DNA of 64,000 nt from Mariprofundus ferrooxydans PV-1 (GTDB taxonomy: Bacteria > Pseudomonadota > Zetaproteobacteria > Mariprofundales > Mariprofundaceae). The translations under genes and the position numbers were made by a program. Location of the stretch: contig NZ_DS022295.1 of NCBI RefSeq assembly GCF_000153765.1, forward strand, positions 1,209,849 through 1,273,848. Reading direction: 5' to 3'. Under the pieces are notes generated by a model. That model made no database searches and was not told the DNA's origin. It saw nothing but the letters and a program-made list of their open reading frames with translations. Of the stretch, positions 7,048-54,922 are shown piece by piece. How positions within the stretch are numbered: position 1 is the first letter of the stretch; each line of letters begins with the position of its first letter.

Positions 7048-7236
7048 GCCGCAAAGCTAGCCGGGCGGAAATGAAAAGAAAGGGTAATAGAGATAAGGCG
7101 TGTTGATTCTGCGGTTTAATTAACCCCATGCAGGCAAAGCGTATCCTGTGGGCTTACGTAAATTCAAATAGAAGGATGATGTCAGAGGGTTTCTGCGCCC
7201 TGCCCCTGTGGTGCGCTCTCAAACAGCGGGATTATG

Positions 7237-7309
7237 TCGGGCTCCTGCCCTCCACCCCTGCGGGGCCGCCGCAAGTGGCGTTCGAATCGGCTATCCTGCC
7301 GATTCGTCG
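7237..7309 (-). repeat. Three-hairpin tRNA-associated repeat, unit A1
   Basis: The unit holds, in plus-strand order, a GGGC-TCCT-GCCC hairpin, a CCCTGCGGGG hairpin plus arms, and GAATCGGCTATCCTGCCGATTC ending in GTCG. The same architecture recurs in units A2, A3 and B1-B4. The orientation is given as that of the upstream tRNA. Confidence 0.7.
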
Positions 7310-7450
7310 ACAATTTTTCAGGACAGAAAAATTGCACGCCCTGCGCCCTGCAAGGGTGGAGCACATGGATGTGCGACATGACAATTTTTCAGGACAGAAA
7401 AATTGCACACTCCAGCGCCCGTATGGGTGGAGCACAGGATGTGCGACATG
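7309..7450. repeat. 71-bp tandem duplication with internal hairpins
   Basis: Copies at 7309-7379 and 7380-7450. Their first 29 bp are identical (7309-7337 and 7380-7408) and contain the inverted repeat AATTTTTC-6 nt-GAAAAATT. The remainder is diverged but ends in the shared GATGTGCGACAT. Confidence 0.75.
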
Positions 7451-7468
7451 AACCCAATAGGGTTTATG

Positions 7469-7538
7469 TCAGGCTCCATGCCTTCGACCCTGCGGGCCGA
7501 CCATACAGTCGTTCAAATTTGCTCCTGCAAATTTGTCG
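7469..7538 (-). repeat. Three-hairpin tRNA-associated repeat, unit A2
   Basis: Same plan as A1: GGC-TCCAT-GCC, then CCCTGCGGGCC, then the hairpin CAAATTTGCTCCTGCAAATTTG followed by TCG. The hairpin sequences have changed in both arms together, so structure rather than sequence is conserved. Confidence 0.7.
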
Positions 7539-7546
7539 TCGCCCCT

Positions 7547-7596
7547 CCTCTTCAGGCATATAATAAAAAAGCGCACCATAAAGGCGCGCTATCTTT
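7547..7596 (-). repeat. Duplicate of the tRNA-Ser(GCT) terminator
   Basis: This segment repeats 7703-7752 almost exactly (CTCTTCAGGCATATAATAAA, then the GCGC stem), but its T-tract is degraded. It is followed by AGGGATT (7601-7607), a possible remnant of the tRNA T-arm, directly before unit A3. Confidence 0.65.
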
Positions 7597-7610
7597 AAAC
7601 AGGGATTGAT

Positions 7611-7681
7611 TCGGGGCTCCTGCCCCTCACCTTACAGGCGGCCTTTCGGCCGTCTAAATTGGCTGTCCTGCCAATTTATCG
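7611..7681 (-). repeat. Three-hairpin tRNA-associated repeat, unit A3
   Basis: GGGGC-TCCT-GCCCC, GGCGGCCTTTCGGCCGTC and AAATTGGCTGTCCTGCCAATTT form three successive hairpins, ending in ATCG. It lies between the two terminator copies. Confidence 0.7.
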
Positions 7682-7757: not shown

Positions 7758-7847
7758 TGGCGGAGAGAGAGGGATTCGAACCCTCGATAGGTTTTAGCCT
7801 ATACACCCTTAGCAGGGGCGCGCTTTCGGCCACTCAGCCATCTCTCC
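7758..7847 (-). tRNA. tRNA-Ser(GCT)
   Basis: This is a 90-nt type II tRNA with a long variable arm. The acceptor GGAGAGA pairs with TCTCTCC, and there is a G discriminator and an encoded CCA. The anticodon loop CTGCTAA gives GCT, which reads AGC/AGU. It is followed downstream by the repeat array 7237-7681. Confidence 0.95.
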
Positions 7848-33937: not shown

Positions 33938-34123
33938 ATGCTAATTTTGACACGCAAAAAGGGTGAAGCCATCGCTATCGGTGACAATATTCAGATTCAG
34001 GTACTGAATGTAAAAGGCGGACAGGTGCGCATTGGCATCGAAGCGCCGCGTGATGTGCAGGTGAATCGGGAGGAGCGCCTGGAAGAGAGCGGCGGCACTG
34101 CTATTCAGGCTTCAGCTACCTGA
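33938..34123 (+). CDS. csrA: Carbon storage regulator CsrA
   Basis: The 61-residue RNA-binding dimer begins [18 protein letters not shown] and includes the core [20 protein letters not shown], the strand that binds GGA motifs in message leaders. A GAGGAG ribosome site precedes the ATG. CsrA controls carbon flux, motility and biofilm genes post-transcriptionally. No CsrB/C-type RNA was recognised nearby. A GC-rich hairpin without a T-tract lies shortly after the stop. Confidence 0.95.
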
Positions 34124-53976: not shown

Positions 53977-54179
53977 AGCCCCCTCCTCCTCAATCCTTGT
54001 AGACAAGCATAACACGGGACTTCTGACAGCATGGCTCTATGCCTGTCATTATGCCGTCTTTACTTTCATGTCTCAGCCGAAACTATAGGGTTCATGTGAA
54101 ATTGAAACAAACGCCTGCACACATCCGGCCTGCGGTGATGCGGATCATTCGACAGTCCGGCTATTGCATTGGGCAAAGC

Positions 54180-54239
54180 ATAAAAAAAGCCCCCAATGTT
54201 TCCATCGGGGGCTTTCTATGTGGCGGAGCGGACGGGACT
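54180..54239 (-). repeat. Duplicate of the tRNA-Asp terminator plus 19 nt of tRNA 3' end
   Basis: This matches 54589-54648 almost exactly. It comprises the GCCCCC hairpin terminator (one base changed) and then TGGCGGAGCGGACGGGACT (54221-54239), the complement of the last 19 nt of tRNA-Asp. The match ends inside the T-arm, where repeat unit B1 begins. Confidence 0.85.
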
Positions 54240-54240
54240 A

Positions 54241-54313
54241 TTCCGGGCATCCTGCCCTTCACCCCTACGGGCCATCACTACGTGATGTTCAAACTGACTC
54301 CTGTCCTTTTGTA
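54241..54313 (-). repeat. tRNA-associated repeat, unit B1
   Basis: The unit is CCGGGCATCCTGCCC, then CCCCTACGGG, then ATCACTACGTGAT and a degraded third hairpin (ACTGACTCCTGTCC). It is nearly identical to unit B2. Confidence 0.7.
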
Positions 54314-54387
54314 TTCCGGACATCCTGCCCTTCACCCCTACGGGGCCATCACTACGTGATGTTCAAACTGACTCCTGTCCTTTTGTA
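54314..54387 (-). repeat. tRNA-associated repeat, unit B2
   Basis: A tandem copy of B1 differing by one inserted G and one G/A change. The near-identity points to recent duplication. Confidence 0.75.
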
Positions 54388-54465
54388 TTCCGGGCATCCT
54401 ACCCTTCACCCTGCGCGGCCGCCGTCGTACCTCCGGCGTCCAATATCGCTCCTGCGATATTGTCG
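54388..54465 (-). repeat. tRNA-associated repeat, unit B3
   Basis: A diverged unit with a complete third hairpin, CAATATCGCTCCTGCGATATTG, ending in TCG. Only the hairpin plan and the TCCTGC core are shared with B1/B2. Confidence 0.65.
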
Positions 54466-54480
54466 CACCCAATCGGGTTA

Positions 54481-54560
54481 CTCCGGGCCTCCATGCCCTT
54501 CGCCTTGCAGGCCGTCACTTACGTGTCGTTCAGATTGGCTCCCCTGCCAATCTGTCTCGT
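54481..54560 (-). repeat. tRNA-associated repeat, unit B4
   Basis: GGGCCTCCATGCCC, then GCCTTGCAGGCC, then AGATTGGCTCCCCTGCCAATCT, ending CGTCG. It is the unit nearest the intact tRNA-Asp terminator. Confidence 0.65.
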
Positions 54561-54588
54561 CGCCATCCACTCCGCAAAAAACAGGCAT

Positions 54589-54626
54589 AAAAAAAGCCCC
54601 CGATGTTTCCATCGGGGGCTTTTTTT
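54589..54626 (-). terminator. Terminator of tRNA-Asp
   Basis: AGCCCCCGATG pairs with CATCGGGGGCT around TTTC. Runs of A before and T after make it effective in both directions. Confidence 0.85.
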
Positions 54627-54629
54627 ATG

Positions 54630-54706
54630 TGGCGGAGCGGACGGGACTCGAACCCGCGACCTCCGGCGTGACAGGCCGGCATTCTAACCAACTGAACTAC
54701 CACTCC
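54630..54706 (-). tRNA. tRNA-Asp(GTC)
   Basis: 77 nt. The acceptor GGAGTGG/CCGCTCC has one T-G pair, a G discriminator and an encoded CCA. The anticodon loop CTGTCAC gives GTC. Its 3' end is duplicated at 54221-54239. Confidence 0.95.
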
Positions 54707-54817
54707 GTGAAGTTACTGACTGGCAGTTCCTTCGTCGGGCCGCAACATAATAACTTGCGACCCCGAAATCAACCTAAAAGATTGTTTCGTTAATCAAGCC
54801 CTGAAATCGGGCTTAAA

Positions 54818-54893
54818 TGGTGGGCGCTGCAGGGTTCGAACCTGCGACCTACGGCTTGTAAGGCCGTTGCTCTCCCAGCTGAGCTAAGCGCCC
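54818..54893 (-). tRNA. tRNA-Val(TAC)
   Basis: 76 nt. The acceptor GGGCGCT/AGCGCCC has an A discriminator and an encoded CCA. The anticodon loop CTTACAA gives TAC, which reads GUA/GUG. A small hairpin (AAGCCC/GGGCTT) follows without a T-run, so cotranscription with tRNA-Asp is likely. Confidence 0.95.
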
Positions 54894-54894
54894 G

Positions 54895-54922
54895 AAAAAA
54901 ACAAGGGCCTACTGCCCTTGTT
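54895..54922 (-). terminator. Terminator of hupB
   Basis: AACAAGGGC pairs with GCCCTTGTT around a 5-nt loop. On the minus strand a run of eight T residues follows. It overlaps the start of the tRNA-Val transcript region. Confidence 0.85.

Follow-up and report, generated by a model that had tools for sequence, protein, structure and literature searches.

The window, that is, the whole stretch of 64,000 nucleotides that was analysed, comes from the 3.0 Mb genome of the iron-oxidising bacterium Mariprofundus ferrooxydans PV-1 (G000) and carries on its minus strand an array of hairpin units (54220-54629) behind the gene for tRNA-Asp(GTC) (54706-54630; ARAGORN, Rfam tRNA 70.2 bits). In minus-strand order this tRNA gene, the parent stable RNA, is followed by the terminator T1 at the boundary between parent and array (54586-54629, 20 paired positions and a U-run), a short gap, the anti-tail CGGAGUGGAUGGCGAC (54559-54574), four hairpin units, a closing tail that repeats the final 19 nt of tRNA-Asp, CCA included, without a mismatch (AGTCCCGTCCGCTCCGCCA, 54221-54239) and a second terminator, T2 (54179-54222). 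Both terminators are strong intrinsic-terminator matches. The units were scored with the covariance model R1, which was built from 17 units of the genus Mariprofundus and, having been trained on units with GGA, may under-detect those without it. Unit 1 (54479-54556, 82.1 bits) consists of hairpin 1 with the loop AGGGGA, hairpin 2, and hairpin 3 with the loop AUGGAG, and the loops AGGA and AGGAU are found in unit 2 (54386-54464, 75.1 bits) as well as in the near-identical tandem copies unit 3 (54312-54385, 51.4 bits, also detected as a direct repeat) and unit 4 (54239-54311, 59.5 bits); units 1, 2 and 4 were training sequences. GGA is thus present in the loops of both hairpin types, 1 and 3, in all four units. 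A scan of positions 54100-54900 for promoters of the sigma-70 type, which includes the gap between T1 and the array, found no sigma-70-like promoter.

A preliminary description of this DNA had reported that the terminator and the last 19 nt of tRNA-Asp occur twice, 409 bp apart, that the outer copy breaks off in the T-arm at the edge of the hairpin units, and that two units, B1 and B2, are near-identical tandem copies. All three observations are borne out: the repeat D4 (27 nt, one mismatch) has copies 409 bp apart and the repeat D3 spans the terminator, the outer tRNA-Asp copy starts at A58 in the T-loop, exactly where unit 4 ends, and B1 and B2 are 97% identical over 69 nt at a spacing of 74 bp. 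When positions 54220-54572 are folded, the array is closed end to end by a stem of 10 + 3 bp between the anti-tail and the outer tRNA tail, and the fold has a z-score of -7.6 relative to shuffled sequences. The same hairpin family had also been noted behind tRNA-Ser(GCT) (7758-7847, minus strand), and here the covariance model gives three same-strand units within 7232-7680, namely 7607-7680 (72.3 bits), which is followed by a degenerate tail and a copy of the terminator, 7465-7537 (73.5 bits) and 7232-7308 (71.0 bits). Two further units lie inside this array in the opposite orientation, on the plus strand (7309-7379 and 7380-7450, together 7309-7450; 40.0 and 41.5 bits). The Ser(GCT) tail has degenerated in PV-1, with AATCCCT alone remaining (7600-7607), and hence the exact T-arm breakpoint is visible within the window at tRNA-Asp only. 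The earlier statement that the breakpoint falls in the T-arm at two unrelated tRNAs therefore holds exactly for Asp and not for Ser(GCT) in PV-1, while behind Ser tRNAs of sister genomes the tail breakpoint is exact.

The array is almost certainly a set of tRNA-linked repeats (TLRs), homologous to rtT and rrA/rrB/rrF of Escherichia coli. TLRs have been known in E. coli since 1978 without a settled function, and E. coli K-12 has 22 copies at ten loci, which share the 18-19 bp of their 3' end with the tRNA or rRNA that precedes them (Stenum et al. 2021, PMC8144298). The PV-1 array likewise follows immediately on a tRNA gene of the same strand, and its tail matches the 3' end of the parent at 19 of 19 positions. 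Homology in sequence and structure is indicated by R1, which scores 68.1 bits (E=7e-18) on the T1-T2 spacer of E. coli rrnB and 21-25 bits (E=5e-5 to 5e-4) on rtT behind E. coli tRNA-Tyr. Both matches sit between the parent and the copy of the parent tail, and rrnB has the same architecture as the window, with AACTGCCAGGCAT, which copies the 3' end of 5S rRNA, standing between the unit and T2. The Rfam model RtT (RF00391) matches positions 54221-54344 of the minus strand over its whole length, but with 19.5 bits the match does not reach the gathering score of 45. Units scoring so far under this value are missed by current annotation, and at gathering thresholds Rfam finds nothing but tRNAs in the window; permissive matches to Thr_leader and His_leader turned out to be terminator matches.

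A scan that is independent of the units, in which the displaced Asp tail TARTCCCGTCCGYTCCGCCA was searched for across 84,980 species genomes, returned 20 loci. Twelve of these are proteobacterial loci with an R1 unit (Zetaproteobacteria, Kangiella and other Gammaproteobacteria), and the unit abuts the tail at 11 of the 12, the exception being L067, where the R1 match lies upstream and is inverted. Seven loci have neither a tRNA-Asp nor a unit and look like chance matches. The remaining one, L085 of Photobacterium damselae, contains pseudo-tRNA repeats and is a different thing: the true tRNA-Asp on its minus strand is followed by a fourfold tandem repeat of a terminator and a degenerate tRNA-Asp, each degenerate copy ending in the exact Asp tail, and these pseudo-tRNAs are unlike TLR units. 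Given the exact 19-nt match 409 bp away, the z-score of the fold and the recurrence across species, a chance origin of the PV-1 array can be dismissed.

Among known systems, rtT/RttR of tyrT-tyrV shares with the window array its location downstream of a tRNA, a tail of 18-19 bp equal to the 3' end of the parent, the order of the hairpins and a core of GAAC, a hairpin and GGCCCGNAGGGYGA. The E. coli tyrT units, however, lack GGA in their loops and a strong terminator ahead of the first unit, whereas the window array has T1 and places four cores under one closing stem. RrA, RrB and RrF (of rrnA, rrnB and rrnD; PMC8144298) agree with it in the order parent, T1, unit, parent tail and T2 and in having two GGA stem-loops, but their parent is 5S rRNA, they consist of one unit, and their conservation has been reported for Enterobacteriales only (PMC8144298). 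Repeated GGA hairpin loops are also typical of CsrB/CsrC and RsmY/RsmZ; these RNAs differ in having their own promoters, a feature for which the sigma-70-type scan gave no counterpart at the Asp array, and in lacking a parent tail and a closing anti-tail. The exact motif CAGGA(U/A/C)G occurs nine times in CsrB versus twice, plus close variants, in the Asp array, and the Rfam models of CsrC and RsmY reach only 11.5 and 10.8 bits in the window. Finally, the trailer sponge 3'ETS-leuZ (cited in PMC8144298) resembles the array as a regulatory RNA freed from the trailer of a tRNA operon; unlike the array, it base-pairs with sRNAs and has no copied tail and no GGA hairpin array.

Across 58 parent-linked units, all intact tails start at A58 and hence comprise 19 nt, with tRNA-Asp, -Tyr, -Gln, -Ser(gga), -Ser(cga), -Ser(gct) and -Arg as well as tmRNA as parents and an equivalent breakpoint at 5S rRNA in E. 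coli. Pairing of the anti-tail with the unit's own tail has a mean of -17.8 kcal/mol in 39 units, among which related ones are not independent, versus -14.8 +/- 0.46 kcal/mol when tails are reassigned, and none of 20,000 permutations was as good. The pairing is not universal, being absent for instance from several units behind Gln and tmRNA, and in several arrays the own tail is not the best of all tails for the anti-tail. Units behind the tmRNA gene were seen at L147, L149, L154 and L233, and the last unit at L147 ends in the exact 19-nt 3' end of tmRNA. The preliminary description had concluded from the T-arm breakpoint that a common mechanism is at work, such as slippage, recombination or an element with tRNA 3' ends as its target. 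One shared cause is upheld, but since the 19 nt belong to the TLR itself, pair with the anti-tail and have a boundary that recurs at many parents, neither slippage nor an element aimed at tRNA 3' ends is needed; recombination may be a source of new copies.

A comparison with sister genomes for empty sites, as had been proposed, was made with 23 genomes of the genus that match a query of tRNA-Asp and terminator, and it yielded both occupied and empty sites. A tail preceded by at least one unit is found at L006, L008 (which has two tails), L009, L015, L016 and L018, the tails at L007, L011, L013 and L017 are degenerate, and some other sisters have none. Relatives devoid of the 19-nt match and with unrelated unit boundaries, a pattern that would have spoken against the earlier interpretation, were sought, and the opposite was seen. 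The empty site is that of G006 (L005), which has the same flank with one tail and one terminator and then continues with the same downstream sequence. T2 of the window shares CATAGAAAGCC with this single terminator, and the outer copy therefore looks like the ancestral one, as judged from this sequence identity. Gain and loss of units through recombination between repeats cannot be told apart in the sister genomes. In G004 (L019), GGAGCGGAAGGTGCGGTAATTCCGTCCGC lies behind the terminator and resembles a scar composed of anti-tail and tail only, and the tRNA-Val/tRNA-Asp pair is duplicated in tandem ahead of the array site at L007, L013, L015, L016, L017 and L019.

R1 matches are present in 52 of 78 genomes of Zetaproteobacteria, in 149 of 377 genomes of Gammaproteobacteria and in 34 of the 271 further genomes that were sampled from the phylum, and within the genus the number of units per genome ranges from 0 to 54. 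PV-1 itself has 49 matches, most of which do not follow a tRNA gene and make up a subfamily without tails. These tail-less units, of the form ACAAA...GGACG...GAATCACA, are dispersed outside tRNA loci and often stand in tandem (for instance at L047, L048, L050-L057, L059 and L062-L065), and one hairpin unit, at positions 1501-1573 of L063 (G000:C4:691530-691602), seemingly lies inside a Met- and His-rich reading frame.

The hairpin stems of TLRs are under selection at the RNA level, as far as can be told from comparative data: among 27 distinct gammaproteobacterial sequences outside the training set, 18 of 21 pairs have changed on both sides, and 99.3% of cells are paired versus 31-48% in slid controls, a comparison in which the alignment was fitted to the structure and hence favours it. 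While the stems vary, GGA is kept in the loops of hairpins 1 and 3, and hairpin 2 has none; at gammaproteobacterial loci selected by their tail and read by eye, GGA is found in hairpin 1 at six of seven and in hairpin 3 at six of seven. GGA in a stem-loop is the binding motif of CsrA, a global regulator. A csrA gene encoding 61 amino acids, one of the PV-1 copies, lies inside the window beside an aspartokinase gene (33938-34123, plus strand; an open reading frame matching PF02599 with E=7.8e-23), and 63 of 78 Zetaproteobacteria have csrA, usually in two copies. In E. coli, members of the rrA/rrB/rrF group bind CsrA via their GGA loops, as shown for RrB: it pulls down CsrA, the Kd is about 100 nM, a change from GGA to UUU abolishes the shift, and deletion or over-expression of rrA/B/F causes a modest change in CsrA phenotypes (PMC8144298).

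The fate of the loops was followed in Zetaproteobacteria without csrA, a gene that is absent from G068, G030 and G026 (95, 99 and 93% complete) even at E<=10. G068 has 49 units and has retained their stems. GGA in hairpin 1, however, is found in only 6 of 43 units of G068 versus 40 of 44 in G000 (p=8e-14) and 30 of 34 in G075 (p=3e-11), both of which possess csrA; copies within G068 are related to one another, so these p-values overstate their independence. For hairpin 3 the figures are 19 of 43 in G068 versus 37 of 43 in G000 and 29 of 34 in G075, and in the control, hairpin 2, GGA occurs in none of the units of either G000 or G068. Four tRNA-linked units of G068 have GCUUGC, CGCAG, CAAUAG and CCGCAG as loops of hairpin 1 in place of one with GGA, and that these sequences differ points to separate losses. 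The unit of G026 has lost GGA from both loops, and G030 has lost it from two of three units and keeps it in one. G027, a member of the same genus as G026, has csrA. Taken over units linked to tRNA or tmRNA, GGA is present in 34 of 41 from genomes with csrA versus none of five from genomes without it (p=6e-4). The association between loop GGA and csrA is thus strong in Zetaproteobacteria, but it is not seen in the csrA-negative gammaproteobacterial drafts G657, G435, G494 and G402, which keep GGA. These drafts are fragmented and their csrA may be missing from the assembly; for G657 and G494 an assembly gap would be the likelier explanation, to judge by relatives that have csrA and by the single copy that is usual in Gammaproteobacteria. 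GGA is also kept in G163, which has no csrA and one unit, and is lacking from rtT of E. coli despite the presence of CsrA in this organism. Co-occurrence of csrA and units as such is strong in the phylum sample, where csrA is carried by 33 of 34 unit-bearing genomes versus 135 of 271 overall (p=2e-10), but it is confounded by phylogeny and weak within Gammaproteobacteria (p=0.04), and it was not relied on. Units lie near csrA at the gammaproteobacterial loci L234, L235 and L237-L240 by way of tRNA-Ser(GCT). Autoregulation of csrA through nearby units, considered for seven gammaproteobacterial genomes, was discarded; most of these units lie beside tRNA-Ser(GCT), which neighbours csrA there.

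Based on these observations, we hypothesize that the Asp array is probably a processed, tail-closed decoy RNA that binds CsrA and is made by read-through of T1. Transcription of the array would depend on RNA polymerase passing T1 behind tRNA-Asp. Sequence and fold show that such an RNA forms a row of hairpins, its two ends joined by pairing of the anti-tail with the copied tRNA 3' end. This closing helix of 10-13 bp with its CCA is shaped like an acceptor plus T-stem and imitates that of the parent tRNA, and we infer that tRNA-processing enzymes cleave it, trim the array and release it as a separate small RNA. In E. coli, recognition of the tail of RrB by RNase E has been suggested, and T1 of rrnB leaks 13% (PMC8144298). 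A role of the Asp array as a CsrA decoy is likely, and it is suggested by the motif and by its loss in some genomes lacking csrA; the GGA loops would bind CsrA, and the array would act as a minor decoy whose amount follows the synthesis of stable RNA and hence the growth rate. Counting against a decoy are the strength of T1 and the missing sigma-70-type promoter between T1 and the array, and also the loss of GGA from E. coli rtT, its retention in the csrA-negative gammaproteobacterial drafts, in G163 and in one unit of G030, and the modest phenotypes of rrA/B/F in E. coli.

The tail-closed hairpins could instead be a module of the trailer only, providing a second processing site and a second terminator by which read-through from stable-RNA genes is stopped or processed, with GGA loops that have no regulatory target. 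The recurrence of the order parent, T1, unit, tail and T2 at several stable-RNA parents fits this idea, as do the persistence of the hairpins without GGA in csrA-less G068 and the fact that in E. coli 5S rRNA the tail is a known signal for RNase E and tRNA processing (PMC8144298). We nevertheless regard it as rather unlikely, as it leaves unexplained why two of three loops carry GGA amid covarying stems, why GGA decays in csrA-less Zetaproteobacteria and why RrB binds CsrA. Nor do we favour a factor other than CsrA: AGGAG-like loops are common in the units and might mimic Shine-Dalgarno sequences to titrate ribosomes or another GGA-binding factor, but GGGA, UGGA and CAGGAUG loops also occur, GGA decays in csrA-less genomes that would be expected to keep Shine-Dalgarno sequences, and with RrB binding CsrA in E. 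coli (PMC8144298) such mimicry appears highly improbable.

Two further explanations place the cause in the DNA. Most of the 49 R1 matches in PV-1 are found away from tRNA genes, units are inverted within the Ser array and copy number varies widely across the genus, all of which would suit a selfish interspersed repeat in the form of a short, mobile hairpin that inserts both at the 3' ends of tRNA genes and at other sites and is perhaps moved by a REP-type Y1 transposase. The association with Y1_Tnp expected of a REP/RAYT element was not found, however, with no correlation between the numbers of units and of Y1_Tnp genes (Spearman 0.05, p=0.84), a unit nearby in only 4 of 20 Y1_Tnp regions and no flanking pairs; DNA mobility also does not predict a parent-matched tail and anti-tail that require pairing at the RNA level, and we consider this origin very unlikely. 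Classically, att sites have a full tRNA at one end and an exact copy of its 3' end at the other, and this geometry, together with the empty site of G006 with its one tail and one terminator, could suggest an attL/attR scar left by a phage or island with tRNA-Asp as its integration site. This reading is already contradicted and has next to no probability left: the roughly 340 bp between the copies hold hairpins only, with no integrase gene or element and no room for genes, and a unit with a matching parent tail recurs at tRNAs, tmRNA and 5S rRNA, for which one integrase site is insufficient. With a read-through, tail-closed RNA that binds CsrA as the best reading, neither integration nor slippage is needed.

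The Asp array is therefore ordinary in kind, being a TLR, and unusual in its place and comparative pattern. CsrA-binding TLRs had been reported in Enterobacteriales only (PMC8144298), and the same unit is now seen to be widespread in Zetaproteobacteria and Gammaproteobacteria and to occur behind tmRNA as well. The loop decay in relatives without csrA amounts to a natural experiment, through which the CsrA hypothesis can be tested in vivo. TLRs in general might be an ancient module, shared across classes, by which the trailer of any stable-RNA operon, whether of tRNA, tmRNA or 5S rRNA, becomes a CsrA decoy, with loss of csrA leading to decay of GGA while the tail-closed scaffold stays, a generalization on which we are evenly divided. 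If true, it would tie CsrA activity to stable-RNA synthesis and provide evidence, from evolution in vivo, for a function that has been in question since TLRs were described in 1978. The rrnB T1-T2 block, which is in use in many expression vectors, also belongs to the TLR family.
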